IMG/VR virus record: IMGVR_UViG_3300027969_004220
Span: 41,622-105,621 of that record
DNA from: a virus
DNA: 64,000 nucleotides
Reading direction: 5' to 3' (one strand)
In this document: positions 16,006 through 59,678 of the stretch, in pieces
Position numbering within the stretch: the first letter of the stretch is position 1
Layout of the letters: each line of letters begins with the position of its first letter
Made by a program: the position numbers and the translations under genes
The notes under the pieces: model-generated
What the model was told of the DNA's origin: nothing
The model's input: the letters and a program-made list of their open reading frames with translations, nothing else
Databases searched by the model: none

Positions 16006-16110
16006 ATGAAAACAACTAATCTAAATATTAACTTAACGCTGAATGTCTTATGTCTAAGACAAAGACCGGGTTTTGCCTTATTTAGAGCAACTGATTTTGA
16101 TGGTGTGTAA
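16006..16110 (+). CDS. Leader peptide of tRNA array A (Leu/Arg-rich attenuator)
   Basis: 34 codons beginning MKTTNLNINLTLNVLCLRQR. It contains six Leu codons (CTA, TTA, CTG, TTA, CTA, TTA) and three Arg AGA codons; the array directly downstream encodes five Leu and two Arg tRNAs or tRNA-like genes. Codons 21-24 (CCG GGT TTT G) hold CGGGTTTTG (16067-16075), exactly complementary to the 5' arm of the terminator at 16138-16146. A small hairpin, GTCTTA / TAAGAC (16045-16060), precedes it. A ribosome stalled on the Leu codons up to codon 15 would leave this segment free to form an antiterminator. The conserved MK..N.NIN start matches the other two leaders. Confidence 0.75.
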   Translation: MKTTNLNINLTLNVLCLRQRPGFALFRATDFDGV

Positions 16111-16137: not shown

Positions 16138-16172
16138 CAAAACCCGAAATTTAAAAGTTTCGGGTTTTTTTG
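16138..16172 (+). terminator. Attenuator terminator before tRNA array A
   Basis: AACCCGAAA / TTTCGGGTT hairpin with an 8-nt loop and a T7 run, 28 nt after the leader stop and 19 nt before the first tRNA. Its 5' arm (CAAAACCCG) can pair instead with CGGGTTTTG inside the leader ORF (9 of 9 bases), a mutually exclusive antiterminator. Confidence 0.8.
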
Positions 16173-16190: not shown

Positions 16191-16264
16191 GGCCCCGTAG
16201 CTCAGCTGGATAGAGCAACTCACTTCTAATGAGTAGGTCACAGGTTCGAATCCTGTCGGGGTCA
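16191..16264 (+). tRNA. tRNA-Arg(TCT)
   Basis: 74 nt, full cloverleaf: acceptor GGCCCCG/CGGGGTC, D arm GCTC..GAGC, anticodon stem ACTCA/TGAGT with loop CTTCTAA, T arm ACAGG-TTCGAAT-CCTGT, discriminator A. CCA is not encoded. First gene of array A; reads AGA, the Arg codon of the leader. Confidence 0.93.
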
Positions 16265-16279
16265 CAAAAATAATCACCT

Positions 16280-16349
16280 GTCGGGGTGGTGGAATGGTAG
16301 ACACGCAGCACTTAAAATGCTGTGCTCCAGAAGAGTCCCTTTCCCGATA
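16280..16349 (+). tRNA. tRNA-Leu(TAA)-like, T arm missing
   Basis: 70 nt. Acceptor GTCGGGG pairs with TCCCGAT (two G-T pairs); the D arm is Leu-like (TGGTGGAATGGTAGACA); anticodon stem CAGCA/TGCTG with loop CTTAAAA. After the variable region there are only about 19 nt before the acceptor strand and no GGTTCGA T arm. A deletion of a T arm (about 17 nt) explains it. Probably a decayed copy; an intact Leu(TAA) follows 8 nt downstream. Confidence 0.6.
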
Positions 16350-16357
16350 CAAAAAAT

Positions 16358-16444
16358 GCGTCTGTGGTGAAATTGGTAGTACACGCTGGGTTTAAGCCCC
16401 AGTGGTCAGGAATGATCGTGAGGGTTCGACTCCCTCCAGACGTA
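16358..16444 (+). tRNA. tRNA-Leu(TAA)
   Basis: 87 nt class II tRNA: acceptor GCGTCTG/CAGACGT, anticodon stem CTGGG/CCCAG with loop TTTAAGC, long variable arm, T arm GAGGG-TTCGACT-CCCTC, discriminator A. Reads TTA/TTG. Confidence 0.92.
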
Positions 16445-16453
16445 CAAAAATAT

Positions 16454-16534
16454 GCCTCAGTAGTCCCAGTTGTCTTCTAAACAACTACGGGTAATTGGAA
16501 ACTGAAAATGTAGGTTCGAATCCTATCTGGGGTA
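16454..16534 (+). tRNA. tRNA-like, Arg(TCT) anticodon, arms in unusual order
   Basis: 81 nt. Acceptor GCCTCAG/CTGGGGT and T arm GTAGG-TTCGAAT-CCTAT are normal. Only 8 nt separate the acceptor from the stem GTTGT/ACAAC with loop CTTCTAA (anticodon TCT), so there is no D arm in the usual place. Instead 24 nt with a D-loop-like TAATTGGAAACTG lie between anticodon arm and T arm. The Ile-type gene at 17524 has the same 81-nt layout. Confidence 0.55.
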
Positions 16535-16545
16535 CTAATACACAA

Positions 16546-16628
16546 GCCGAGGTGGTGGAATGGTAGACACGCTGGTCTAAGAAGCCAGTGTCCGAAAGGA
16601 CGTGCGGGTTCGAGTCCCGCTCTCGGTA
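16546..16628 (+). tRNA. tRNA-Leu(AAG)
   Basis: 83 nt class II: acceptor GCCGAGG/TCTCGGT, anticodon stem CTGGT/GCCAG with loop CTAAGAA, variable arm TGTCCGAAAGGACG, T arm GCGGG-TTCGAGT-CCCGC. A34 in the anticodon is uncommon for bacterial Leu tRNAs and would need inosine or four-way wobble for codons beyond CTT. Confidence 0.9.
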
Positions 16629-16630
16629 CA

Positions 16631-16897
16631 ATGAAAGAAATAAATTATATACAGTACACATCATATACATTATTATCAAGTGGTGGTGTATTTAAGGTAA
16701 ATTCAGCAATGCCTTTACCGAATTTAGATAAACACTTGAATGAGAGTATAAACTTAATTATGTTTGTAGTTCATAATATAAAGTGTAATGATAAAGAAGT
16801 AATGTTTTATAATAGAGATCTATTTAGATTGACATATGGATCAAAAGAATGTTCTGAAATGATTATGAAAATGAAACATTCACATATATTAGAATAA
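16631..16897 (+). CDS. Unknown 88-aa protein inside tRNA array A
   Basis: Starts at an ATG 3 nt after a tRNA-Leu and ends 1 nt before the next tRNA-Leu, so it is embedded in the array. Begins [20 protein letters not shown]; the middle has [21 protein letters not shown]. It is not an HNH or GIY-YIG homing endonuclease by eye and no family is recognised. Its mRNA would have to survive tRNA 3'- and 5'-end processing on both sides. Confidence 0.6.
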
Positions 16898-16898
16898 T

Positions 16899-16980
16899 GT
16901 CGGAGTGATGAAATGGTAGACGTGCTTGGCTCAAGACCGAGTGTCCAAAAGACGTGTGGGTTCGAATCCCACCTTCGATA
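16899..16980 (+). tRNA. tRNA-Leu(CAA)
   Basis: 82 nt class II: acceptor GTCGGAG/CTTCGAT, anticodon stem CTTGG/CCGAG with loop CTCAAGA, T arm GTGGG-TTCGAAT-CCCAC, discriminator A. Reads TTG. Confidence 0.92.
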
Positions 16981-16988
16981 CAAAATAT

Positions 16989-17075
16989 ACCCCTATGAGC
17001 AAATAGGCAAAGCTTGCTGGCTTAGACCCAGTGGAAAACAATGATACATTCTCGGTTCGAGTCCGAGTAGGGGTA
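16989..17075 (+). tRNA. tRNA-Leu(TAG)
   Basis: 87 nt class II: acceptor ACCCCTA/TAGGGGT perfect, anticodon stem GCTGG/CCAGT with loop CTTAGAC, T arm CTCGG-TTCGAGT-CCGAG, discriminator A. Reads CTA/CTG, both present in the leader. Last gene of array A. Confidence 0.9.
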
Positions 17076-17094
17076 CAAAGAAAAATTAAAAAAG

Positions 17095-17181: not shown

Positions 17182-17271
17182 ATGAAAACAAATACTGTAA
17201 ATATTAATGTGATTACGATTACGAATTGTGTGAATAGCACGACTTCGGGTAATGAGATATGTATGGTATAA
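17182..17271 (+). CDS. Leader peptide of tRNA array B/C (Asn/Thr/Val/Ile/Cys attenuator)
   Basis: 29 codons beginning MKTNTVNINVITITNCVNST. 22 of 29 residues are Asn (6), Thr (6), Val (4), Ile (4) or Cys (2). The tRNAs downstream are Asn x2, Ile x2, Val x2, Cys x2, Thr x2 plus one of unclear type: the same set. Codons 21-23 (ACT TCG GGT) contain TTCGGGT (17244-17250), complementary to ACCCGAA in the terminator 5' arm (17303-17309). Nearly all diagnostic codons precede this segment, as needed for stall-dependent antitermination. Confidence 0.8.
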   Translation: MKTNTVNINVITITNCVNSTTSGNEICMV

Positions 17272-17300
17272 AGTTAAAGTATATTATAATAAATTCATAA

Positions 17301-17330
17301 AAACCCGAACTCAAAAAGTTTGGGTTTTTT
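17301..17330 (+). terminator. Attenuator terminator before tRNA array B
   Basis: AACCCGAACT / AGTTTGGGTT (10 bp, one G-T) with a 5-nt loop and a T run, 30 nt after the leader stop and 20 nt before tRNA-Asn. ACCCGAA of its 5' arm is also complementary to TTCGGGT in the leader ORF. Confidence 0.8.
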
Positions 17331-17349: not shown

Positions 17350-17420
17350 TCTTCTATAGTGAAATGGTATCACGTCTGACTGTTAATCAGTTATTCCAGG
17401 TTCGAGCCCTGGTGGAAGAG
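17350..17420 (+). tRNA. tRNA-Asn(GTT)
   Basis: 71 nt: acceptor TCTTCTA/TGGAAGA, anticodon stem CTGA/TCAG with loop CTGTTAA, T arm CCAGG-TTCGAGC-CCTGG, discriminator G as expected for Asn. Confidence 0.9.
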
Positions 17421-17426
17421 CAAAAT

Positions 17427-17514
17427 TACTGGGTTGCCATAGCCAGGTCGAATGGTTCGGACTGTTAATCCGATGAGCATCGCTCCACCGTGGGTTCGAA
17501 TCCCACCCCAGTAG
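17427..17514 (+). tRNA. tRNA with Asn anticodon (GTT) on a Tyr-like class II body
   Basis: 88 nt: acceptor TACTGGG/CCCAGTA, D arm GCC..GGT, anticodon stem TCGGA/TCCGA with loop CTGTTAA, a variable hairpin GAGC-ATC-GCTC, T arm GTGGG-TTCGAAT-CCCAC, discriminator G. The long variable arm and the flanks of the anticodon (GGACTGT.AATCC) are those of tRNA-Tyr(GTA), but the third anticodon base gives GTT, and G73 is the Asn discriminator. It looks like a Tyr tRNA converted to Asn. Confidence 0.8.
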
Positions 17515-17523
17515 CAAATATAT

Positions 17524-17604
17524 TGGCAAATACCAGCCCAACCTGATAAGTTGGAGAACTGTAGTGGTAAGTTGAAAACGTGGGTTCGAATCCCACTTTG
17601 CCAA
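17524..17604 (+). tRNA. tRNA-like, Ile(GAT) anticodon, arms in unusual order
   Basis: 81 nt. Acceptor TGGCAAA/TTTGCCA and T arm GTGGG-TTCGAAT-CCCAC are perfect. Seven nt after the acceptor comes the perfect stem CCAAC/GTTGG with loop CTGATAA (GAT). A D-arm-like AACT-GTAGTGGTA-AGTT follows the anticodon arm instead of preceding it. Same design as the gene at 16454. Confidence 0.6.
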
Positions 17605-17728
17605 CAAAAAAAATAAAATAATAATTATGAAAATGAAAGAGAATTTATTAAATAGTTCGGTTAGTAGTTAAAAAAAGTGATAAAAGTGAGTTATAATTTT
17701 TTATATATACAATAAATAAAAAACTATA
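17605..17728 (+). other. Short AT-rich spacer before the HNH gene
   Basis: Contains a 14-codon ATG-to-TAA frame (17628-17672, MKMKENLLNSSVSS) and a TTTTTTATATATA box (about 17697-17709) upstream of the HNH gene. No terminator hairpin or antiterminator pairing is seen, so it does not look like a fourth attenuator. Confidence 0.4.
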
Positions 17729-18265
17729 ATGGAAAAAGATAAAATGATAGAACTAATCGAGTTAGGTTACTCACAAAGGAATCTTGCGGAAGAACTAAAA
17801 ACATCACAATCTAATGTTAAATATTGGTTAAAAAAATTTGAAATAAGTACAAAATATAAAAAAAATAATATAGATAAACATATAATTGATGGTGGTAAAA
17901 ATTGTCCTAAATGTAATGAGTTAAAAGATGTGGATGACTTTTATAAAAGAAGTAGTATAAATAGAAACGGAACCGCGGGTTATTGTAAAAAATGTAGTAA
18001 TATTTATCATGGTGCTAGATTAAAGAAAGTTAAATTAAAAATGATTTTATATAAAGGTGGTAAATGTTGTGATTGTGAACTAAACCATGAAAATACACAC
18101 TATTGTGTTTTTGATTTTCATCACTTAGATCCAAATACTAAAGACCCAAACTTTAATAAAATTAAATATCAAAAATGGGAAAAAATTAAAGAAGAAATTG
18201 ATAAATGTGTATTATTGTGTGCGAATTGTCACCGTTTAAGACACTCTGTTATCAGTGGATGGTAA
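17729..18265 (+). CDS. HNH homing endonuclease inserted in the tRNA array
   Basis: 178 residues. N-terminal helix-turn-helix (about 5-38, GYSQRNLAEELKTSQSNVKY), then a Cys4 zinc site (NCPKCNELKDVDDFY...GYCKKCSN) and a C-terminal HNH nuclease with DFHHLDP and LLCANCHRLRH. It is a typical selfish phage endonuclease. It splits what appears to be one tRNA operon: the upstream leader peptide carries codons for tRNAs on both sides of it. A TTTTTTATATATA box just upstream may give it its own promoter. Confidence 0.9.
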   Translation: MEKDKMIELIELGYSQRNLAEELKTSQSNVKYWLKKFEISTKYKKNNIDKHIIDGGKNCPKCNELKDVDDFYKRSSINRNGTAGYCKKCSNIYHGARLKKVKLKMILYKGGKCCDCELNHENTHYCVFDFHHLDPNTKDPNFNKIKYQKWEKIKEEIDKCVLLCANCHRLRHSVISGW

Positions 18266-18277
18266 ATAAATAAAAAT

Positions 18278-18360
18278 AGGTCTATGGTGTAATGGCAACA
18301 TCCTTCTTTTACATGGAAGAGACGTGAAGTATAATCTCGGTTCGAGTCCGAGTAGACCTA
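18278..18360 (+). tRNA. tRNA-Val(TAC), long variable region
   Basis: 83 nt: acceptor AGGTCTA/TAGACCT, anticodon stem CTTCT/GGAAG with loop TTTACAT, an unusually long 16-nt variable region (AGACGTGAAGTATAAT), T arm CTCGG-TTCGAGT-CCGAG, discriminator A. Position 38 is T rather than the usual A or C. Confidence 0.8.
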
Positions 18361-18366
18361 CATAAT

Positions 18367-18442
18367 GGTTCCTTAGCTCAGTTGGTTCAGTAGCGTCTGT
18401 TTTACACGCAGAAGGTCATAGGTTCGAATCCTATAGGAATCA
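18367..18442 (+). tRNA. tRNA-Val(TAC)
   Basis: 76 nt: acceptor GGTTCCT/AGGAATC, D arm GCTC, anticodon stem TCTGT/GCAGA with loop TTTACAC, T arm ATAGG-TTCGAAT-CCTAT, discriminator A. Reads GTA/GTG. Confidence 0.92.
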
Positions 18443-18448
18443 CAATAT

Positions 18449-18522
18449 TGGTAGTTAGCTCAACTGGTTAGAGCACTTCGCTGATACCGAAGAGGTTATG
18501 GGTTCGACTCCCTTACTACCAA
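18449..18522 (+). tRNA. tRNA-Ile(GAT)
   Basis: 74 nt canonical cloverleaf: acceptor TGGTAGT/ACTACCA, anticodon stem CTTCG/CGAAG with loop CTGATAC, T arm ATGGG-TTCGACT-CCCTT, discriminator A. Confidence 0.93.
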
Positions 18523-18530
18523 CAAAAAAT

Positions 18531-18618
18531 GGCATAGTGTCTGAGTGGTCGAAAGATGCGGTCTGCAAAACCGTAATGATTAAGTTCATCATCGTAGGTT
18601 CAAATCCTACCTATGCTT
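18531..18618 (+). tRNA. tRNA-Cys(GCA) with long variable arm
   Basis: 88 nt: acceptor GGCATAG/CTATGCT, D arm of Ser type (CTGAGTGGTCGAAAGA), anticodon stem GCGGT/ACCGT with loop CTGCAAA, long variable arm with GATGA-type pairing, T arm CGTAGG-TTCAAAT-CCTAC, discriminator T as required for Cys. A class II body on a Cys tRNA is unusual. Confidence 0.8.
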
Positions 18619-18624
18619 CTAAAT

Positions 18625-18704
18625 GGTTGGTCACTGTAAATGGCTTCACAGTGGGACGGTACGTGGAATTTATTCCTAAGTGGGTTCGAGACCCACATCA
18701 ACCT
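18625..18704 (+). tRNA. tRNA-like gene, isotype unclear
   Basis: 80 nt. Acceptor GGTTGGT/ATCAACC and T arm GTGGG-TTCGAGA-CCCAC are good, discriminator T. Between them lie a long hairpin (CACTGT / ACAGTG with a 10-nt loop containing TGGC) and a second one (GGAA-TTTA-TTCC) that looks like a variable arm. I cannot place a 7-nt anticodon loop with T33, so the isotype is not called. Confidence 0.5.
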
Positions 18705-18711
18705 CAATAAT

Positions 18712-18785
18712 GGCGCGGTGGCCGAGTGGCACGTAGGCGGTGGATTGCAAACTCACACACACTGGTTCGAATCCAGTCCGCGCCT
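18712..18785 (+). tRNA. tRNA-Cys(GCA)
   Basis: 74 nt: acceptor GGCGCGG/CCGCGCC perfect, loop TTGCAAA, T arm ACTGG-TTCGAAT-CCAGT, discriminator T. The anticodon stem GTGGA/CTCAC is weak (one mismatch, one G-T). Confidence 0.85.
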
Positions 18786-18792
18786 CGAGACG

Positions 18793-18848
18793 AGACTGTT
18801 ACTAATTCATAGGGGCCCATACGATGTAAGTGTCTGCGTAGAATTAGA
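18793..18848 (+). ncRNA. Pseudoknot-like small RNA, copy 1
   Basis: Sits between tRNA-Cys and tRNA-Thr. Ordered elements: AGAC, (T)GTTA, CTAATTC, ATAGGG, then GTCT, GCGTA, GAATTAG. AGAC can pair with GTCT and CTAATTC with GAATTAG in interleaved order, an H-type pseudoknot. The same elements recur at 26461-26510 in array D with different filler, so the motif is conserved within this phage. Not a tRNA; the function is unknown. Confidence 0.55.
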
Positions 18849-18852
18849 AAAT

Positions 18853-18925
18853 GCCGATATAGCTCAATAGGTAGAGTGCCAACTTGGTAGGTTGGAGGTT
18901 AAGGGTTCGATTCCCTTTATCGGAT
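18853..18925 (+). tRNA. tRNA-Thr(GGT)
   Basis: 73 nt: acceptor GCCGATA/TATCGGA with a G1-A72 mismatch, D arm GCTC, anticodon stem CCAAC/GTTGG with loop TTGGTAG, T arm AAGGG-TTCGATT-CCCTT, discriminator T. Reads ACC/ACT. Confidence 0.88.
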
Positions 18926-18933
18926 CAAATAAT

Positions 18934-19014
18934 GCTGGTGTTGCGTAGTGGCCGATCGCACCTACCTTGTAAGTAGGAATTCCAACGTCGCAGGTTCGAA
19001 TCCTGTCACTAGCT
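18934..19014 (+). tRNA. tRNA-Thr(TGT), extended variable region
   Basis: 81 nt: acceptor GCTGGTG/CACTAGC, anticodon stem CCTAC/GTAGG with loop CTTGTAA, about 12 nt of variable region (AATTCCAACGTC), T arm GCAGG-TTCGAAT-CCTGT, discriminator T. Reads ACA/ACG. Last tRNA of array C. Confidence 0.85.
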
Positions 19015-19020
19015 CGACAA

Positions 19021-25687: not shown

Positions 25688-25813
25688 ATGGCTGGTAAAA
25701 AAGGACAGTTTGCTGTTTGTAAAGAATGGGCTAAACACTTGAGAAAGAAATACAAAAGAATCTTTTGGAGCTCAGAAAGAGCACTTTCCAAAAAAGAAAT
25801 TAAAAAAATCTAA
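25688..25813 (+). CDS. Small basic protein (41 aa)
   Basis: Begins MAGKKGQFAVCKEWAKHLRK and is strongly basic (about 13 Lys/Arg) with aromatic residues, ending KKEIKKI. It has its own TAnnTTTG promoter and ends just before the array D control region. It could bind nucleic acid; no family is recognised. Confidence 0.6.
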   Translation: MAGKKGQFAVCKEWAKHLRKKYKRIFWSSERALSKKEIKKI

Positions 25814-25818
25814 TAATA

Positions 25819-25851
25819 ATTAGGTAGATTGAAAACTTTATATTACTTTTG
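25819..25851 (+). promoter_or_regulatory. tRNA-array D promoter (ATTAGGTAGAT + TACTTTTG)
   Basis: ATTAGGTAGAT at 25819-25829 and TACTTTTG at 25844-25851, followed by the same A-rich leader with AACAAAAAGG and TTTAATATATA as arrays A and B. Confidence 0.75.
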
Positions 25852-25907
25852 TAGTATAAAATCAAAGAAAAACAAAAAGGAACAATAAAAGTTTAATATA
25901 TAGTAAT

Positions 25908-26006
25908 ATGAAAAATGTAAATGTAAATATCGTAGTTATGCCGCAGCCGATGCAGGATCAGGATCGTTTCACGAACCAGACTAACTATGTATTTATATCA
26001 CATTAA
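25908..26006 (+). CDS. Leader peptide of tRNA array D (Met/Pro/Gln/Asp attenuator)
   Basis: 32 codons beginning MKNVNVNIVVMPQPMQDQDR. Residues 11-19 (M P Q P M Q D Q D) consist only of the isotypes encoded by array D: Gln x2, Asp x3, Pro x2 and a Met(CAT)-like gene. It uses CCG and CAG, G-ending codons atypical of this AT-rich genome. The segment GACTAAC (25979-25985) is complementary to GTTAGTC in the terminator 5' arm (26036-26042). The diagnostic block ends about 15 nt before this segment, the spacing expected if a ribosome stalled there frees the antiterminator strand. Confidence 0.8.
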   Translation: MKNVNVNIVVMPQPMQDQDRFTNQTNYVFISH

Positions 26007-26029
26007 GAAATTACGTGTATAAAAATTAC

Positions 26030-26064
26030 AAATCCGTTAGTCTTTGAGACTAACGGATTTTTTT
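26030..26064 (+). terminator. Attenuator terminator before tRNA array D
   Basis: AAATCCGTTAGTC / GACTAACGGATTT hairpin (13 bp, 5-nt loop) with a T7 run, starting about 24 nt after the leader stop and ending 20 nt before tRNA-Gln. GTTAGTC can pair alternatively with GACTAAC in the leader. Confidence 0.85.
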
Positions 26065-26083
26065 ATGGAATAAAATTAAATAT

Positions 26084-26155
26084 TGGAGTATCGTATAATG
26101 GTAATTATTCAGGGTGTTGGCCCCTGCGATTTGGGTTCGAATCCTAATACTCTAA
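26084..26155 (+). tRNA. tRNA-Gln(TTG) with unusual anticodon loop
   Basis: 72 nt: acceptor TGGAGTA/TACTCTA, Gln-like body (U1-A72 and GTATCG after the acceptor), anticodon stem CAGGG/CCCTG with loop TGTTGGC, T arm TTGGG-TTCGAAT-CCTAA. With a 7-nt loop the anticodon is TTG but position 33 is G, not the near-universal T. A Pro(TGG) reading would need a shifted loop. Confidence 0.75.
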
Positions 26156-26164
26156 CAAAATTAT

Positions 26165-26226
26165 GGGACCATGGTTGAATGGTTTACAATGCCACCCTGT
26201 TGCGGGTTCGAATCCCGTTGATCCCG
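26165..26226 (+). tRNA. Truncated tRNA-like gene, anticodon arm deleted
   Basis: 62 nt. Acceptor GGGACCA/TGATCCC (one mismatch), D arm GTTG..CAAT and T arm GCGGG-TTCGAAT-CCCGT are present, but only about 10 nt (CCACCCTGTT) remain where 22 nt of anticodon arm and variable loop should be. The isotype cannot be assigned; probably a decayed tRNA. Confidence 0.55.
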
Positions 26227-26233
26227 CTAAAAT

Positions 26234-26306
26234 AGTTATATAGCTCAGTGGTTAGAGTGCTAGGTTGTCGCCCTAGAGGTCGCGGGTTCGATCCCCGTTA
26301 TAACTG
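26234..26306 (+). tRNA. tRNA-Asp(GTC)
   Basis: 73 nt canonical: acceptor AGTTATA/TATAACT, D arm GCTC, anticodon stem CTAGG/CCTAG with loop TTGTCGC, T arm GCGGG-TTCGATC-CCCGT, discriminator G. Confidence 0.93.
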
Positions 26307-26309
26307 CAA

Positions 26310-26373
26310 ATGTAATCCTTCAGTCAACAGTGAGGAGAATGAATACCCTAATGCTTGTGTAGGGAGGTTACAT
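26310..26373 (+). ncRNA. Three-way-junction small RNA between tRNAs
   Basis: Closed by TGTAATC / GGTTACA (7 bp like an acceptor stem), with inner hairpins CTTCA-GTCAACAG-TGAGG and CCCTA-ATGCTTGTG-TAGGG. It has the size and outer stem of a tRNA but no T loop (TTCGA) and no credible anticodon loop. Could be a degenerate tRNA or a stable RNA like T4 species C and D; no match is known to me. Confidence 0.45.
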
Positions 26374-26378
26374 AAATT

Positions 26379-26451
26379 GGTTTATAGGTCAAATGGCTAA
26401 GATGTCCGGCTGTCGCCCGGTACGGAGAGGGTTCGAATCCCTCATAGACCG
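26379..26451 (+). tRNA. tRNA-Asp(GTC), second copy
   Basis: 73 nt: acceptor GGTTTAT/ATAGACC, anticodon stem TCCGG/CCGGT with loop CTGTCGC, T arm GAGGG-TTCGAAT-CCCTC, discriminator G. Its body differs clearly from the Asp tRNA at 26234, so it is not a recent duplicate. Confidence 0.9.
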
Positions 26452-26460
26452 CTGCATGGT

Positions 26461-26510
26461 AGACCGTTACTAATTCATAGGGACAGAAAGTTGGTCTGCG
26501 TAGAATTAGA
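26461..26510 (+). ncRNA. Pseudoknot-like small RNA, copy 2
   Basis: AGACC, GTTA, CTAATTC, ATAGGG, then GGTCT, GCGTA, GAATTAG. AGACC/GGTCT (5 bp) and CTAATTC/GAATTAG (7 bp) interleave as a pseudoknot. Shares its elements in the same order with 18793-18848 in array C; the filler between ATAGGG and GTCT differs. Confidence 0.55.
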
Positions 26511-26514
26511 ATTA

Positions 26515-26587
26515 CTAGGTGTAGGAAAGTTGGTATTCCGCGTGCTTTGGGAGCACGAGATCGCAGGTTCGAGCCCTGTCACTTAGA
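26515..26587 (+). tRNA. tRNA-Pro(TGG)
   Basis: 73 nt: acceptor CTAGGTG/CACTTAG with the C1-G72 pair typical of Pro, anticodon stem CGTGC/GCACG with loop TTTGGGA, T arm GCAGG-TTCGAGC-CCTGT, discriminator A. Confidence 0.92.
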
Positions 26588-26591
26588 CTAA

Positions 26592-26666
26592 CGCGTAACG
26601 ATCCACAGAGAGAGGTTACCCGCCTTGGACGCGGGGTTATTGCAGGTTCGAGTCCTGTTTACGCGA
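26592..26666 (+). tRNA. tRNA-Pro(TGG), second copy
   Basis: 75 nt: acceptor CGCGTAA/TTACGCG perfect with C1-G72, anticodon stem CCCGC/GCGGG with loop CTTGGAC, 8-nt variable region, T arm GCAGG-TTCGAGT-CCTGT. The D arm is irregular (GATCC ... GGTTA). Confidence 0.85.
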
Positions 26667-26672
26667 CTAAAT

Positions 26673-26757
26673 AGCTACAGCGCATAATGGCTGGTGTGCC
26701 TGACTGTCACTCAGGTGTTGATTTTCAACGTAGCGGGTTCGATTCCCGTTGTAGCTG
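26673..26757 (+). tRNA. tRNA-Asp(GTC) with long variable arm
   Basis: 85 nt: acceptor AGCTACA/TGTAGCT perfect, anticodon stem CCTGA/TCAGG with loop CTGTCAC, a class II-like variable hairpin GTTGA-TTT-TCAAC, T arm GCGGG-TTCGATT-CCCGT, discriminator G. A long variable arm is foreign to tRNA-Asp. Confidence 0.82.
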
Positions 26758-26763
26758 CAATAT

Positions 26764-26834
26764 TGGAATATGATGTAACGGTAGCATCACATCTTTTGAC
26801 GGTGTTTGTGGAGGTTCGAATCCTCCTATTCCAA
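26764..26834 (+). tRNA. tRNA-Gln(TTG)
   Basis: 71 nt: acceptor TGGAATA/TATTCCA perfect, anticodon stem ACATC/GGTGT with loop TTTTGAC, T arm GGAGG-TTCGAAT-CCTCC, discriminator A. Reads CAA and by wobble CAG, the Gln codon of the leader. Confidence 0.92.
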
Positions 26835-26844
26835 CAAATAAAAT

Positions 26845-26916
26845 GGCGTTGTAGCTCAGAGGCAGAGCGGTCGGTTCATATCCTTCAGGACGGGATCTCG
26901 GAATTCCCCAACGCTA
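26845..26916 (+). tRNA. tRNA-Met(CAT)-like, degenerate T loop
   Basis: 72 nt fitting the standard spacing: acceptor GGCGTTG/CAACGCT, D arm GCTC-AGAGGCA-GAGC, anticodon loop TTCATAT, T stem GGGAT/TTCCC with loop CTCGGAA instead of TTCGAAT. The anticodon stem GTCGG/CCTTC has two mismatches. Possibly decaying, but Met codons in the array D leader are consistent with it being meant as a Met tRNA. Confidence 0.55.
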
Positions 26917-26923
26917 CTAAAAT

Positions 26924-26954
26924 AAAAATCCTCTCAAATTGAGAGGATTTATTT
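26924..26954 (+). terminator. Intrinsic terminator ending tRNA array D
   Basis: AAATCCTCTC / GAGAGGATTT hairpin, 5-nt loop, T-rich tail. It also faces the 3' end of the convergent minus-strand gene. Confidence 0.8.
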
Positions 26955-39947: not shown

Positions 39948-41432
39948 ATGAAAATATACACATATTATACAGAAAGTCATAAAGACTTATTTGAAAACTA
40001 TTTTTCTAAGACTGTAGAAGATTTAGAAATTGATTCAACAATAGGAGAGCAAGAATGTAAAAGTGGTTCTTACTATTCTGATGGTTGGAAAACAACAACA
40101 ATGAAAAAGGTTGATGTTTTTATAAAAGCAGTAAATGAAAATATGGGAGATATATTTGTATTTTCTGATGTTGATATACAGTTTTTTGGACCTATTAAAG
40201 ATGCTTTAATACAAGAATTAGGTGAGTTTGATATTGCAATACAAAATGATTATAATGGTGGACTTTGTTCTGGATTTTTTGTTTGTCGTGGAAATGAGAG
40301 AACACTTAAAATGTTTGAAAGTATGAGAGATAATCACGACCAATACTTAGAGGATCAACACGCATTAAATATGAATCTAAATCATTGCAACTATACGGTC
40401 TTATCAACAAGATTTTGGACATTTGGATCATTTGGAACACAATGGAAAAATCAAAACTTTGATATACCAGATAATTTACTTATGCACCATTCAAACTGGG
40501 TAGAAGGTATTGATAAGAAAGTTGAACTATTAAAAATTGTTAGATTTAAAAATAATCTAAAAAAACAAAACTTATTGGGTAAAGATAAGTATCAATTATT
40601 TCTTAATAATTTCTTTCAGGAATTTAGACCTAATCCTACTTATACAGTTTATCCACCATATCATACAGGTAAATACATAGAAGGGTTTTTCTTTGATTAT
40701 TATAATAAGAACTTAAATAGTGATATTTATTATATTCCAGTTGATTGGACAACCTGTTATATACAAAATGTAAGTCTATCTTTATTACAAGAAAAGTTAC
40801 TAAGTTTAGATAAAACTAAAAAGTACTTTACTGTTAGTCAACATGATGATGCAATAAAAGAGTATTTTCCCTATGAAGTTATAAAATTCTCTGCCGGTGG
40901 TAATATGCCAGGAATTCCGATTCCATTAGTTTGTTCACCTATCCCTGAATCTATAAAGGTTATTAGAGATAAAGACATTTTTTGTTCATTTGTTGGATCC
41001 CTTACACATCCAATAAGACAACAAATGGTGAGTGTATTGGGTAAAAACAGTAAATATAATTTACAATATAAAACTTGGACTGATAAAGTTAGTCAGTCTG
41101 ATCTAACTAACTTTATTGATATTACATCAAGGAGTATATTTACACTTTGTCCTAGAGGGTATGGAAAAAACTCATTTAGAATGTATGAGGCAATGCAATT
41201 AGGTAGTATTCCTGTTTATATATATGACGAGGATTGGAGAGCGTTTACTGATACTATAAACTGGGATGAATTTTCTATTTCCATACATAGTTCAAACCTT
41301 AATAATATTGATAGTATTTTATCAAATATTAGTGATGATAAAATAAAACAAATGCAAGAAAATGTCATAAAAGCATATGACGATTACTTTTCACTAGAGA
41401 GTATGTCAAAACAAATAATAGATAAATTATGA
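39948..41432 (+). CDS. Two-domain glycosyltransferase (GT-A plus exostosin-like GT47)
   Basis: 494 residues. N-terminal domain (1-230): MKIYTYYTESHKDLFENYFS, metal-binding FVFSDVDIQFFGP, NDYNGGLCSGFFVCRGN and DQHALNMNL, as in nucleotide-sugar transferases of the GT77/DUF-type. C-terminal domain (about 260-494): DIFCSFVGSLTHPIRQQMV, SIFTLCPRGYGKNSFRMYEA and GSIPVYIYDEDW, the exostosin pattern also seen in the gene at 43752. Fusion of two transferases suggests addition of two consecutive sugars. It overlaps the next gene by 4 nt. Confidence 0.75.
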   Translation: MKIYTYYTESHKDLFENYFSKTVEDLEIDSTIGEQECKSGSYYSDGWKTTTMKKVDVFIKAVNENMGDIFVFSDVDIQFFGPIKDALIQELGEFDIAIQNDYNGGLCSGFFVCRGNERTLKMFESMRDNHDQYLEDQHALNMNLNHCNYTVLSTRFWTFGSFGTQWKNQNFDIPDNLLMHHSNWVEGIDKKVELLKIVRFKNNLKKQNLLGKDKYQLFLNNFFQEFRPNPTYTVYPPYHTGKYIEGFFFDYYNKNLNSDIYYIPVDWTTCYIQNVSLSLLQEKLLSLDKTKKYFTVSQHDDAIKEYFPYEVIKFSAGGNMPGIPIPLVCSPIPESIKVIRDKDIFCSFVGSLTHPIRQQMVSVLGKNSKYNLQYKTWTDKVSQSDLTNFIDITSRSIFTLCPRGYGKNSFRMYEAMQLGSIPVYIYDEDWRAFTDTINWDEFSISIHSSNLNNIDSILSNISDDKIKQMQENVIKAYDDYFSLESMSKQIIDKL

Positions 41433-42214
41433 ATAAATATTTAATAGTAATTGCTAGATATAATGACTGGCGACAGGAATTTTTTGAATCTAACTTTTCT
41501 CCAAGAAATAAAGAGTATTGTGATAAATGGGGGTTTAACTATATAGAAATAAAAAATGATACTAATTTAACACTCCATAGAAATAATCCTACCTGGTGGA
41601 AGTTTACCATTGTTAGAGATATGATAAAAGATGGTATTCTAAAGGATGGTGACATTGTAACTCACCTAGATGCTGACATGGCAATAGTTGATATGGAACA
41701 AGAATTCGTAACAAATAAATCATTCTCTTACTCAATTGACTCTGGTAATACACACTGTATGGGATGCTATAGTATTAAAATAAATGATTGGTCAAGAAAA
41801 ATGATAGATCTTATCTTAGATGAAGATAGATATAAGTTATTAAATGATAAAGTAACTCAACATGAAGCATTTGGACATTTCTCATCGTTTTGGCATGAAT
41901 TTAGAGAACAAGCTTCTTGGTACTCACTTGCGGGTGTAAAGAGACATAGCTGGGAACCATTTTTTAATCTTTCTGATTTTGGATGGCACAGTGATAAAAA
42001 TGAAACAACCATATATTCTTTAGAAGAATTGTATGAGAATGTAGAAATACTTCCTACTGCTTGGAATGTAACAGAGATGGTTGGAGAAACAGATGGTCAG
42101 TTTAATATAAATAAACTAAGTCCTGATGAAGTAATAATAAGACACTTTTCTGGTGGACAACCTTGGAGAAAAGAATGGCTTACAAAAAACAATAATAATA
42201 ATGAAAGAAATTAA
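41429..42214 (+). CDS. Glycosyltransferase, GT34/DUF273-like
   Basis: 261 residues. NKYLIVIARYNDWRQEFFES, WWKFTIVRDMI and the metal-binding VTHLDADMAIVD, followed by HCMGCYSIKINDW and HEAFGHFSSFWHEFREQASW, and near the end IIRHFSGGQPWRKEW. This resembles galactosyl/mannosyltransferases of the GMA12/MNN10 type. Sugar and acceptor unknown. It overlaps neighbours on both sides. Confidence 0.7.
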   Translation: MNKYLIVIARYNDWRQEFFESNFSPRNKEYCDKWGFNYIEIKNDTNLTLHRNNPTWWKFTIVRDMIKDGILKDGDIVTHLDADMAIVDMEQEFVTNKSFSYSIDSGNTHCMGCYSIKINDWSRKMIDLILDEDRYKLLNDKVTQHEAFGHFSSFWHEFREQASWYSLAGVKRHSWEPFFNLSDFGWHSDKNETTIYSLEELYENVEILPTAWNVTEMVGETDGQFNINKLSPDEVIIRHFSGGQPWRKEWLTKNNNNNERN

Positions 42215-43076
42215 AATTGGATACTCTGATTTTTGGGGAGAACTAATACCCGATGACAATTATTTTTATAATCTATTATCACTAAAATATAAAGTTATAA
42301 TAGATAATATAAATCCTGATATACTATTCTATACGGTCTATGGAAATAATCATCTCAGATATGATATGAATAAAGTTATAAAGATTTTATATACCGGAGA
42401 GAACTATAGACCAAACTATAATGAATGTCACTACTCATTATCTTTTGATTACTCTAATGATAGTAGAAACTATAGATTACCACTTTGGGTTTTAACTCTT
42501 AATTGGTTCGACCGACCATACAGACCGGAGAGAGATCAAGCATACCTTCATTCCGTTGATGATTTTTTAAATAAAAAACTATTAGATAAAACAAAATTTT
42601 GTAGTTTTATTGCATCTCAACCTAAAGGCAAAAGAATGGAGTTTGTACCTAAATTATATAAATACAAACATATTGATTGTGGTGGTAGAGTTTTCAACAA
42701 TATAAACCCAGTAGAAGGTAGAGGTGACCAAATACAAAAGATAGACTTTCTAAAAGACTATAAGTTTAATATTAGTTTTGAGAATAGTTCTAATCCAGGA
42801 TATTGTACTGAGAAAATAATACATTCTATGTTTTCAGGTTGTATTCCTATATATTGGGGTGATACGCTAGTTGAAAATGACTTTAATCATAATTCATTCT
42901 TAGATTTGAATAAATTCAAGTCTGATGAACACTTAATTGATGAGATTATAAAAATAGATAATGATCAAAGACTATATAATGAAATTATTAACCAACCATG
43001 GTTTACTAATAATCAAATACCAGAATTTGCCAAACCGGAATCGGTTTTATCATTTTTTGAAAAAATAATAAAATAA
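42201..43076 (+). CDS. GT10 alpha-1,3-fucosyltransferase
   Basis: 291 residues from ATG 42201; overlaps the previous gene by 14 nt. The GT10 signature is clear: FCSFIASQPKGKRMEFVPKL, ENSSNPGYCTEKIIHSMFSG and IPIYWGDTLVENDFN, the conserved GDP-fucose-binding end. It uses the GDP-L-fucose made by gmd and fcl in the same operon to fucosylate a glycan. This makes a self-contained phage fucosylation route. Confidence 0.88.
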   Translation: MKEIKIGYSDFWGELIPDDNYFYNLLSLKYKVIIDNINPDILFYTVYGNNHLRYDMNKVIKILYTGENYRPNYNECHYSLSFDYSNDSRNYRLPLWVLTLNWFDRPYRPERDQAYLHSVDDFLNKKLLDKTKFCSFIASQPKGKRMEFVPKLYKYKHIDCGGRVFNNINPVEGRGDQIQKIDFLKDYKFNISFENSSNPGYCTEKIIHSMFSGCIPIYWGDTLVENDFNHNSFLDLNKFKSDEHLIDEIIKIDNDQRLYNEIINQPWFTNNQIPEFAKPESVLSFFEKIIK

Positions 43077-43077
43077 T

Positions 43078-43752
43078 ATGAAGTTAAATATAGAAAAAGT
43101 GTATGTAATACACTATACAAAATTAGAAGATAGAAGAAAAAAAATAATGGATCAATTTTCTAATATCTCTAATTTAGAATTCATTAACGATTATGATAAA
43201 GATGATCTAAATACTGAAATATTAGAAAAGTTTTACTATCCATCACCAATGGAATGGATAAAAAAAGTATCACCACTTTGGAATCCAGAAATACACAGGT
43301 TTAGAAACCTCAACCTAGCAGAAATATCATGTACAATTAAGCATATTTTGGCAATAAAAAAAATTTCAGAAAATGGAGATGGATTTATTATTGAGGATGA
43401 TCTTTTATTAAAAGAAAATTTTGTTGAGGAATTTAATTTGATGATTTCTAATCTACCTGATGATTGGGATCTAGTGATAGTTGGTGCGGGTTGTAATTTA
43501 CATTCAGATAATATTACCAAAGATAAAAGACTTTATAAGGCAAAAAATCCAGCTACTCGATGTTTAGATTCATATCTAATTTCACAAAAAGCAGCAAAGA
43601 AGATTATGGATACTATTATACCATTTCAATTAGTTTCGGATTGGGAACTAGCATACCATATATACCTACATAATCTTAATACCTACTGGTTAGAACCAAG
43701 TCCATGTTTTCAAGGTTCTGAATCAGGAGAATATAAATCAACTTTAAGATAA
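43078..43752 (+). CDS. Glycosyltransferase family 25-like
   Basis: 224 residues. KVYVIHYTKLEDRRKKIMDQ at the start, CTIKHILAIKKISENGDGFI then IEDDLLLKENF (E-D-D metal motif), DWDLVIVGAG, and LDSYLISQKAAKKIMD. This is the LPS-type GT25 layout (usually galactosyl- or glucosyltransferase). It lies 1 bp after the fucosyltransferase. Confidence 0.8.
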   Translation: MKLNIEKVYVIHYTKLEDRRKKIMDQFSNISNLEFINDYDKDDLNTEILEKFYYPSPMEWIKKVSPLWNPEIHRFRNLNLAEISCTIKHILAIKKISENGDGFIIEDDLLLKENFVEEFNLMISNLPDDWDLVIVGAGCNLHSDNITKDKRLYKAKNPATRCLDSYLISQKAAKKIMDTIIPFQLVSDWELAYHIYLHNLNTYWLEPSPCFQGSESGEYKSTLR

Positions 43753-48133: not shown

Positions 48134-49312
48134 ATGAATATTTTTAGAAAAAAGATAAATAAAGAAGACTACTTTATAGTAACCTACTTCTTAGAGTCCA
48201 CGACAACACTTAGAGATGCTGCTTGGAATCTTGCAATAGGTCAAAGTGTTGGTAATCCAAATGTTAGAAATCAATGGGAATCAGACGAATTATTTAATAA
48301 TCATTCTTGTATAATATTAGATGATGAACAGATACTAAAAACAAAAAATTCTGGAACTATAGAAATAGCTTTCCCAATTATAAATATAGATTTCAAAACA
48401 GATGGTATCTCACACTTACTAGTTAATATAATGGGTGGTCAACTAGATATTGATAATATTGTAAAATGTCAAGTTTTGAATATTGTATTTCCTGAATCAG
48501 TTGAGAAGCTATTTTTAGGACCAAAGTTTGGAATTAAAGGAATAAGAGAATATACAAAATGTTTTGATAAACCACTATTCGGTGCCATTGTTAAACCAAA
48601 AACTGGAATATCACCACAGACTCTTCTGGAAATGGTTAAAGAGTTAGTAGAAGGTGGTGTAAACTTTATTAAAGAGGATGAGATTTTGAGTAATCCATCA
48701 TTTTGTACAATTGAAGAAAGAGTTCCACTAATTATGGACTACTTAAAAGATAAAAATGTTATTTATGCGGTTTCTATACATGCGGATTACCCATATGTAA
48801 TTGATAGAGTAAAGAAAGTTTATGAACTAGGTGGTAATGCAGTACATATTAATTTTTGGTGTGGACTAGGAGTTTATAAAACAGTAAGAGAATTAGACTT
48901 ACCAATCTTTATACACTTTCAAAAAAGTGGTGATAAAATATTGACTAATAAAAATCACGATTTTCATATTGATTGGAATGTAATTTCCAAAATAGCTGGA
49001 ATGATGGGTGTCGATTTCATACATGCGGGTATGATTGGTGGTTATTATAAATGGGATGAATCCGAAGTATTAAATTCTGTTGAAACATTACATAAATATA
49101 ATGTAATGCCTGCTCTTAGTTGTGGATTTCATCCTGGACTAACTGAATGGGTTACTTCTAAAGTTGGAATTGATTATATGGCTAATGTCGGTGGTGCTAT
49201 TCACGGGCACCCAGATGGTACACTAGCTGGAGCAAAGGCAATGAGACAATCAATCGATGGTGAGCAGTCTAGCGAATATCAAATCGCTATTGAAAAATGG
49301 GGCAAAATTTAA
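48134..49312 (+). CDS. RuBisCO-like protein (form IV-type large-subunit homologue)
   Basis: 392 residues, shorter than carboxylases (about 450-475) and similar to RuBisCO-like proteins. N-terminal alpha/beta domain (YFIVTYFLESTTTLRDAAWN), then the TIM barrel. Visible equivalents: GAIVKPKTGISPQTL (K175 motif), GGVNFIKEDEILSNPSFC (carbamylated K201, D203, E204), IFIHFQKSG (H294 strand), HAGMIGGYYKWDE where G-K-L-E-G with K334 should be, ALSCGFHPG (S379 region) and VGGAIHGHPDGTLAGAKAMR. Metal site kept, loop-6 Lys apparently lost. It probably catalyses an enolase, isomerase or similar reaction on a sugar-derived acid, not CO2 fixation. Confidence 0.9.
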   Translation: MNIFRKKINKEDYFIVTYFLESTTTLRDAAWNLAIGQSVGNPNVRNQWESDELFNNHSCIILDDEQILKTKNSGTIEIAFPIINIDFKTDGISHLLVNIMGGQLDIDNIVKCQVLNIVFPESVEKLFLGPKFGIKGIREYTKCFDKPLFGAIVKPKTGISPQTLLEMVKELVEGGVNFIKEDEILSNPSFCTIEERVPLIMDYLKDKNVIYAVSIHADYPYVIDRVKKVYELGGNAVHINFWCGLGVYKTVRELDLPIFIHFQKSGDKILTNKNHDFHIDWNVISKIAGMMGVDFIHAGMIGGYYKWDESEVLNSVETLHKYNVMPALSCGFHPGLTEWVTSKVGIDYMANVGGAIHGHPDGTLAGAKAMRQSIDGEQSSEYQIAIEKWGKI

Positions 49313-57864: not shown

Positions 57865-58386
57865 TTAGAATTTCATATCTAATATGAACTCATAACTGAT
57901 ACCTCTATCATTATGAGTAACATTTAAAGTGTGTGTAAGTGTAGTAATTGGGAATTCTTCACCAAAGATACTTTCATCTTTGAATTTTGCTTGTAAGTGT
58001 TTAAGACCAGTTTCTATATCAAGAAAGTCATTACTAAGTCCATTAAAAGTTGCAGCATAACCAGATAAAGTTTTATCTGATTTAGCATAGTTACCCACAA
58101 TTCTATATCTACCATAGAATCCAACATGATCTGCTTTATTTACTTTAGATATAGATGTTTTGGCATCACGATCAAGTGCTTCTACAAAGTATTCATCTAA
58201 TAAGTCTTTAGTATCTTCTAAGATCTCAGGAAAGATAGTTTTTAAATATAACATATTCTGCTTACCAAGATTAAGTTTTCTTTCTACTTCTTCATGCCAA
58301 GCTTTTTGGAATCTAGCAACATCATTACCTTCTTTATCATATAAATGACCTTCTTCAAATGCCTCGTTATACTTTCTTAATTTCAT
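57865..58386 (-). CDS. Unknown 173-aa protein with leader-like N-terminus
   Basis: Starts MKLRKYNEAFEEGHLYDKEG, matching the leader pattern with Y-N-E at residues 6-8. The rest is helical then beta-rich (GFYGRYRIVGNYAKSDKTLS; TTLTHTLNVTHNDRGISYEF). No enzyme motif is visible. It overlaps the 2H/DnaQ gene by one base. Confidence 0.6.
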   Translation of the reverse strand: MKLRKYNEAFEEGHLYDKEGNDVARFQKAWHEEVERKLNLGKQNMLYLKTIFPEILEDTKDLLDEYFVEALDRDAKTSISKVNKADHVGFYGRYRIVGNYAKSDKTLSGYAATFNGLSNDFLDIETGLKHLQAKFKDESIFGEEFPITTLTHTLNVTHNDRGISYEFILDMKF

Positions 58387-59678
58387 TACTTTGTTCTAAT
58401 ACTTTTTATCCTTTCGGTTTGATACTTTGATATATCTATATTATTATATTGATTTAATAAATCAACTATTCTTTTATACATTTCTATCGTAATACGACAA
58501 TCCGTTAATGCATCATGATAACCAGACATATTGATTCCAAGTGCCGGTCCAACTTTACTCATTGAAGATGAAATTAAACCGTTATCTCTCGGTGAAGTTC
58601 CGATACCGTCTACCATTTTTTGATAAGTTACATCAGTTTCTGCTAACTTTTGAATAAGTGGTAAGAAATATAATTGAATCAACATTTTAGTGTCTAAGAC
58701 TTCATTTGTTATTTTATGACCGTATCTACCAGATAACATTTGCATATCAAATCCAGCATTCTGTGCTACTAATAAACAAGGTGAGAACTCACTCATCCAA
58801 TCAAAGAACTCATCAACGATTTGCCTTTCATCTTTATATTTATAACCACCTGAACCATAATGATTGAAACTTAATATTCTTCTATTACCACCATCAGGTT
58901 GATTATATCTTGTCTTTAATTCAGAGGTTAGTTTAATCTTCTCATCAAAAGAACCAATCTCATCAAATGTATTAGAACTGAAATTATATTTAGTAGAAAG
59001 AGAAGATACTTGTGTTAGTTGTTCGTGTTTTGGTCCTAATAGTCCGGTAGTTTCGGTGTCCAACCACAACCAATGTAGGTTAGACTTACTTTTAAGAAAG
59101 TTTAACATTTCTGGTATTGTTTTATACCACATTTTATTTTCATTTAACTTATATAAACTATCTTCACCTTTATGTGAATATGTTATTGTATCAATTCCAT
59201 TTATTTCTAATCTTAAATCTTTACAATACTTATCACCAGTACCTTTCTTAATATAACCAATTGTTATATGAGGATTAAATGAATGTTTATTATAGTTCGG
59301 TAAATGAGAACTTAAATAGTTATGTACTTTCTTTAAATAAGGATTGCCTTCTACTTTGATAACTAATATATCATAATTACTACCATCAAAGACTTCTATA
59401 TTTTTTGTAACTACATTTATTGATTCATCTTTTACAACTTCATCTAATTTTTGTTTAACCTGATCAAAGGTTACATCATTTTTAATTGGATAAAGTAAAG
59501 TTAGGTGAGCTCTTTTTTGAAGGCCGAATGGTATACTACCACCTTGTACATCATAAATATCTTCCTCATCTATTATTGATAAAATATCATCCCAATTAGA
59601 AATTGGAAGTTCTAACATTATACAACCATTTTTATAAGCAAATGATTCAAATAGATTATACTTTATTATATTTCTCAT
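58386..59678 (-). CDS. 2H phosphoesterase fused to a DnaQ-like exonuclease, with leader
   Basis: 430 residues. N-terminus MRNIIKYNLFESFAYKNGC is leader-like. Domain 1 (about 15-185) has the two H-x-T motifs of 2H phosphoesterases: AHLTLLYPI and NPHITIGYI, as in 2'-5' RNA ligase-like and anti-CBASS Acb1-type enzymes. Domain 2 (about 200-430) is a DEDD(h) exonuclease: WLWLDTETTGLL, LVAQNAGFDMQML, GYHDALTDCRI. Fusion of these two activities is unusual. It could degrade cyclic nucleotides or process RNA ends; the substrate is unknown. Confidence 0.87.
   Translation of the reverse strand: MRNIIKYNLFESFAYKNGCIMLELPISNWDDILSIIDEEDIYDVQGGSIPFGLQKRAHLTLLYPIKNDVTFDQVKQKLDEVVKDESINVVTKNIEVFDGSNYDILVIKVEGNPYLKKVHNYLSSHLPNYNKHSFNPHITIGYIKKGTGDKYCKDLRLEINGIDTITYSHKGEDSLYKLNENKMWYKTIPEMLNFLKSKSNLHWLWLDTETTGLLGPKHEQLTQVSSLSTKYNFSSNTFDEIGSFDEKIKLTSELKTRYNQPDGGNRRILSFNHYGSGGYKYKDERQIVDEFFDWMSEFSPCLLVAQNAGFDMQMLSGRYGHKITNEVLDTKMLIQLYFLPLIQKLAETDVTYQKMVDGIGTSPRDNGLISSSMSKVGPALGINMSGYHDALTDCRITIEMYKRIVDLLNQYNNIDISKYQTERIKSIRTK

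Follow-up and report, generated by a model that had tools for sequence, protein, structure and literature searches.

The window, by which we mean the whole stretch of 64,000 nucleotides that was analysed (positions 41622-105621 of the 105,621-base virus record G000), carries three tRNA arrays, each preceded by a short open reading frame and a hairpin. The array of main concern here, array D, and the elements around it are as follows:

25820..25851, + strand: Bacteroidota-type promoter of operon D, assigned by consensus only, with TTAGG at 25820 and TACTTTTG (a TAnnTTTG -7 box) at 25844-25851
25908..26006, + strand: predicted leader D open reading frame, 32 codons and a stop, MKNVNVNIVVMPQPMQDQDRFTNQTNYVFISH
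25938..25964, + strand: control codons 11-19 of leader D, ATG CCG CAG CCG ATG CAG GAT CAG GAT
25978..25985, + strand: region 2, the 5' antiterminator strand AGACTAAC, from duplex prediction (z = -3.06 for the hairpin)
26030..26060, + strand: predicted intrinsic terminator D, AAATCCGTTAGTCT-TTG-AGACTAACGGATTT followed by a T-run, -17.8 kcal/mol; its 5' arm is region 3
26084..26916, + strand: tRNA array D (Gln, a degenerate tRNA-like gene, Asp, Asp, Pro, Pro, Asp, Gln, Met), from ARAGORN and Rfam RF00005
26926..26950, + strand: terminator-like hairpin at the 3' end of array D, the probable terminator of operon D

The promoter lies 56 bases 5' of the leader start codon, and an alignment of promoters shows that the TAnnTTTG kind is common to most of the other modules. 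The terminator has a stem of 14 bp and a loop of 3 nt. ARAGORN places the array genes at 26084 (Gln), 26234 and 26379 (Asp), 26515 and 26592 (Pro), 26673 (Asp) and 26764 (Gln), and both Met(CAT) at 26845-26916 and the degenerate gene at 26165-26226 pass the Rfam tRNA cut-off. The degenerate gene has a shortened anticodon arm and resembles a tRNA-Asp of LR745206.1. A repeated element that is not a tRNA (..GTTACTAATTCATAGGG..TCTGCGTAGAATTAG) is found between tRNA genes at 26455-26512 and 18785-18850 of the window, on the minus strand of L073 near 2862, and in L090-L094. It has pseudoknot-like interleaved stems, one arm of which reads CTAATTC/GAATTAG but AAATTTC/GAAATTT in the 735-kb phage described below, and it has no match in Rfam.

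The original prediction held that residues 11-19 of the leader contain only the isotypes of array D, and this agrees with the frame and the array listed above: the codons read M P Q P M Q D Q D, exclusively Met, Pro, Gln and Asp. It also pointed to CAG and CCG as the codons used for Gln and Pro in an AT-rich genome. These are indeed rare, at 14% of Gln and 5% of Pro codons in the long open reading frames of the window, but two of the nine residues are written with the common GAT (82% of Asp codons). Over the six leaders of G000 the control codons are rarer than the genome-average usage, and of the 49 degenerate ones 20 have G or C in the last position, as compared to 6.5 expected. Homologues of leader D are present in L018, L060, L022, L030 and others.

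Module D had been described as a third attenuator. This reading passed nearly every sequence test. The window contains three (A, B and D) of six leader-terminator-tRNA modules in G000. The other five are:

16006..16110, + strand: predicted leader A open reading frame, MKTTNLNINLTLNVLCLRQRPGFALFRATDFDGV and a stop
16139..16168, + strand: terminator of module A
16191..17076, + strand: tRNA array A, Arg and Leu genes
17182..17271, + strand: predicted leader B open reading frame, MKTNTVNINVITITNCVNSTTSGNEICMV and a stop
17299..17329, + strand: terminator of module B
17350..19015, + strand: tRNA array B, Asn, Ile, Val, Cys and Thr genes
Outside the window: module E, Lys/Trp/Phe/His, leader ..FSKSFKWFSHKF..
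Outside the window: module S, Ser/Arg, leader ..SSSSSSRSS..
Outside the window: module F, Tyr/Glu/Ile/Gly/Ala, leader ..IAIEAIGGYEAGY..

Jointly the six modules span all 20 amino acids, with Met counted from Rfam and Ala from L010. Protein genes interrupt the arrays between tRNA genes at 17729-18265 of the window, at 3101-3946 of L009 and in many relatives; for the gene inserted in L009 there is a weak match to an HNH endonuclease, and others look like homing-endonuclease genes.

The design is not confined to this genome. DNA similarity led from G000 to the unannotated records LR745206.1 (634,780 bases) and LR756502.1 (642,428), and then to LR756501.1 (735,411), and a search with GlnRS led to eleven IMG/VR loci on contigs of up to 508 kb. 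The tRNA arrays of the relatives were located with a tRNA model, and modules were scanned for as a short open reading frame, a terminator and a tRNA within 250 bases, ignoring codon content. In this codon-blind scan leaders precede nearly all large arrays, and the collection comprises about 80 modules in 15 phage records and singletons, huge phages of 634, 642 and 735 kb among them. That the DNA comes from a phage, as originally supposed, was borne out. The array isotypes are those called by ARAGORN, some miscalls included; the leader was picked by eye at several loci with more than one candidate frame, and for L073 and L040 it was read by hand. In the 735-kb phage, ..IINMIQEQMQQIQ.. precedes Glu/Met/Gln/Ile tRNAs, KYNDYCIND a bL12 gene and Ile/Cys/Asp/Asn/Tyr/His tRNAs, ..ILHINLLNSLCLLGIKL.. 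five Leu tRNAs, and ..TPAPAVAFRRGTGTGTGT.. Arg/Pro/Ala/Thr/Val/Gly tRNAs. The region of that genome first matched by BLAST, L071, is without tRNAs; the arrays lie elsewhere, with leaders. The bL12 ribosomal protein gene is the first gene of its attenuated tRNA operon (L073, 4463-4831, minus strand). The same scan found no matching module in Lak-A1 or KVP40, both of which are tRNA-rich, and the design is therefore not general to tRNA-rich phages. The genome sizes of the Mahaphages of Al-Shayeb et al. match those of the module-bearing records (634, 642 and 735 kb), and that study assigns its genomes above 634 kb to the Mahaphage clade and predicts Bacteroidetes as their hosts (PMC7162821).

How the 20 isotypes are grouped varies by lineage, and the composition of each leader tracks its own array. 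When leaders and arrays were permuted within each genome, the true assignment ranked first in 14 of 14 genomes (1/720, 1/5040, etc.), with 920 in-set residues as compared to a null mean of 407 and a null maximum of 570 (20,000 draws, 14 genomes). The lineage of G014 (306 kb), reached via a pattern for the unrelated repeated RNA element described above, served as an out-of-sample test. In G014 the isotypes are divided among four modules in a new way, {I,H,M,S,N,W,R}, {L,V,C}, {F,D,A,E} and {P,K,G,Q,Y,T}, with all 20 present and each amino acid used exactly once. Its leaders are ..INIHMISISNWRRNSHQMS.., ..LVLLSLCLLVV.., ..FDFAFFAAEED.. and ..TQTTYQTQYQPKGGKP.., and 34 of 36 residues in the control zone are cognate, against 2 of 108 with swapped arrays. 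The match also depends on the frame that is read, with 0.74 for the leader frame versus 0.16 and 0.12 for the other two. Compositional chance is ruled out by the permutation, frame and out-of-sample tests, and in our judgement the choice of leaders by eye or hand and the isotype miscalls cannot explain the permutation and out-of-sample results.

These tests bear on two other explanations of the short frames. They could encode functional small peptides whose composition has nothing to do with the tRNAs, and their similar starts (MKT/MKN, N-rich) would suit such a role; the order of residues is however free between phages while the composition keeps to that of the array, and leaders match their arrays under different groupings of the isotypes, so that we find this explanation scarcely credible. 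A hairpin ahead of a tRNA array could in principle also be an insulator or an RNA-processing site and nothing else, with the match of the reading frame a by-product of composition. Both the frame specificity and the tRNA-rich phages Lak-A1 and KVP40, in which the same scan found no matching module, speak against this, and its probability is in our opinion equally negligible.

The spacing between control codons and hairpin is also regular. The cognate fraction has its peak of 94% at the codon located 13-15 nt 5' of the predicted antiterminator strand (offset -5), is 63% at offset -4 and about 0.2-0.3 from -3 on, whereas with swapped arrays it is 0.04-0.19 throughout. In leader D the last control codon begins 16 nt upstream of region 2. 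Given the size of its footprint, a ribosome whose A site holds a codon at 13-15 nt would stop just short of covering the strand. The sharp cognate boundary is thus, as far as geometry goes, a fitting one for a ribosome that would spare the strand when stalled and cover it when advancing.

The terminator 5' arm pairs with the 3' part of its own leader at a mean of -13.5 kcal/mol, as compared to -8.8 with swapped leaders. The duplex of the own antiterminator is better than in shuffled leaders (p < 0.05) in 50 of 76 modules, and the own partner is the best pairing in 42 of 76, against 14 expected; the antiterminators of modules A and B reach -14.5 kcal/mol (p 0.005) and -12.9 kcal/mol (p 0.025). 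As to the earlier statement that each antiterminator matches its own terminator, the 8-bp duplex of D is marginal when taken alone and was not the best partner in the swap test. For D the pairing of GACTAAC (25979-25985) with GTTAGTC (26036-26042) had been proposed, and the coordinates are right. The complete hairpin (25975-26046) is supported, with -13.1 kcal/mol, z = -3.06 and only 1 of 200 shuffles equally good, while the 8-bp region 2:3 duplex by itself is among the weaker cases (p = 0.085 versus shuffled leaders). A comparison with relatives had been suggested for this pairing, and the pairing segments of the D family are indeed conserved; the core ACTAAC/GTTAGT barely varies, so the covariation comes from comparison between modules and not from within D.

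It was also possible to follow the predicted exchange of the two structures. In nascent D RNA up to the terminator loop, regions 2 and 3 are predicted to share 0.0 bp without a ribosome and 8.1 bp once one has stalled on the last control codon. Folding at equilibrium favours the terminator over the antiterminator in most modules, and does so even when a ribosome is stalled, and therefore the exchange must be kinetic; an equilibrium switch fails for most modules, and the kinetic model alone fits. A protecting pairing between regions 1 and 2 is predicted for D and otherwise in a minority of modules, which implies that in many modules transcription would pass the terminator if the leader were not translated. 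The dominance of the terminator at equilibrium could alternatively suggest that translation of the leader is tied to tRNA expression by RNA decay or by some effect independent of the terminator, such as ribosome protection or a Rho-like factor. We consider this improbable, as every module has an intrinsic terminator, and the 5' arm of that terminator is generally a match for the leader of the same module, at 13-15 nt past the last control codon.

The leader, the match between its codons and the array, the spacing, the terminator and the complementarity are all observed, and the design is conserved. Based on the sequence and on the folding models, we put the probability that each tRNA operon of this phage is under ribosome-mediated transcription attenuation at about 0.88. 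The Bacteroidota-type promoter would start a transcript with the short leader, the control codons of which would be those decoded by the tRNAs encoded downstream. With plentiful aminoacyl-tRNAs the ribosome would clear the control codons and sit on the antiterminator strand, and with this strand occupied the terminator would form and leave the tRNA genes untranscribed. If any one of the aminoacyl-tRNAs were short, the ribosome would stall on a control codon, its front edge would come to lie immediately 5' of the strand, and the freed strand would capture the 5' arm of the terminator before the 3' arm is made, so that transcription would enter the tRNA genes and, in relatives, also reach the cognate synthetase gene. 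New tRNA would then relieve the stall, a negative feedback specific for each isotype group. The model assumes that transcription and translation are coupled in Bacteroidota hosts. It further takes it that the leader is translated, that the ribosome stalls and that antitermination is kinetic, and induction would presumably take place during infection, triggered by loss of tRNA, by demand or by amino-acid shortage.

Several of the attenuated operons contain synthetase genes, each cognate to its leader: GlnRS in many, a GlyRS-like gene in W01, a HisRS-like fragment in G002, ThrRS and LysRS in G003, TrpRS in the 735-kb phage and an AlaRS-like gene in G008. In L040 a Gln-rich leader, MSQTQTHIQQLQQQFDTKG, and a terminator precede GlnRS, and no tRNA was found beside them at that locus; in W01 and W02 a Gln leader lies inside the Asp/Pro operon, making a tandem attenuator. 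Initiator-like tRNA-Met genes, with a mismatched 1:72 pair, are outside the attenuated arrays in 9 of 12 cases, and the 735-kb phage accounts for all three exceptions. We count this as support because a codon in the A site cannot sense the initiator.

We think it fairly probable that the attenuators form a complete circuit of surveillance and repair of the tRNA pool, by which these phages would keep watch on the supply of all 20 aminoacyl-tRNAs and replenish no group but the missing one, as tRNA and in some cases also as synthetase, and that may have been selected against host defences that cleave tRNA or against tRNA decay in long infections. The leaders could instead sense amino-acid starvation, that is charging and not loss of the tRNA molecules, as in amino-acid operons of the host. 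Attenuators answer to charged tRNA, so that both inputs look alike to them, and more tRNA and synthetase would lift the charging capacity, with the synthetase genes under the same control. Extra tRNA is however useless when the amino acid is absent, the arrays are mostly tRNAs, and no biosynthesis genes are seen in the operons, which makes starvation sensing rather unlikely as the explanation.

The enteric trp, his, leu, thr and ilvGMEDA attenuators have cognate leader codons, an intrinsic terminator and an antiterminator about one footprint downstream, and the ilv and thr leaders sense several amino acids. The phage modules are similar in having a leader frame of cognate codons, a terminator and a competing antiterminator strand. 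They differ in that the products are viral tRNA arrays of up to about 20 genes, that one leader would sense up to about eight isotypes, and that the leaders of one genome jointly span all or nearly all 20 amino acids. In E. coli the pheST operon, which encodes an aminoacyl-tRNA synthetase, is controlled by leader-peptide attenuation with cognate codons. The Gln leaders that precede GlnRS in L040 and W01/W02 are alike, but viral, and such synthetase genes are usually joined with tRNA genes of the same specificity. T-box riboswitches also sense tRNA charging and act by antitermination of synthetase and amino-acid genes, but they bind uncharged tRNA directly, without translation, while the predicted phage sensor is an open reading frame of the translated type. 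Leader D has only chance-level matches in Rfam, to no known leader family, and no T-box match at the gathering threshold nor at E up to 5 in 25800-26080.

Van den Berg et al. proposed that phage tRNAs replace host tRNAs depleted in infection; their subject is anticodon-loop mutations as a counter-defence to tRNA-cleaving nucleases, and the words leader, promoter and terminator are absent from the text (PMC10264068). Al-Shayeb et al. reported tRNAs and synthetases for huge phages in a text without words beginning with leader or attenuat (PMC7162821). We found no earlier report of tRNA genes attenuated through their own codons in a search made mostly without subscription journals and preprints. 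The mechanism is of a known kind; the literature searched gave no precedent for its target in tRNA arrays, its carriers among huge phages, the coverage of all 20 isotypes or the varied grouping.

The purpose of phage tRNA genes has been debated for decades. If the circuit is real, some phages gauge the shortage of each tRNA group and make tRNA on demand under end-product feedback, and thereby go beyond topping up rare codons. It would give a regulatory logic to the tRNA arrays of the largest known phages and provide ready-made sensors of multiple tRNAs. The tRNA-depletion hypothesis would also become directly testable, by asking which arrays answer to the cleavage of a single host tRNA.

Other genes were observed elsewhere in the window. 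At 39948-43752 there is a cluster of glycosyltransferases (exostosin GT47, GT10 fucosyltransferase and GT25) downstream of two nucleotide-sugar epimerase genes. The protein encoded at 58386-59678 on the minus strand matches a 2'-5' RNA ligase/Acb1-like domain, with an RNase T exonuclease domain just under the cut-off, and its sequence suggests a possible function in anti-CBASS or RNA processing. A RuBisCO large-chain-like protein is encoded at 48134-49309 (PF00016, 6e-35); its best NCBIfam match is TIGR03326, type III, at 5e-55, which is below the cut-off of that family.
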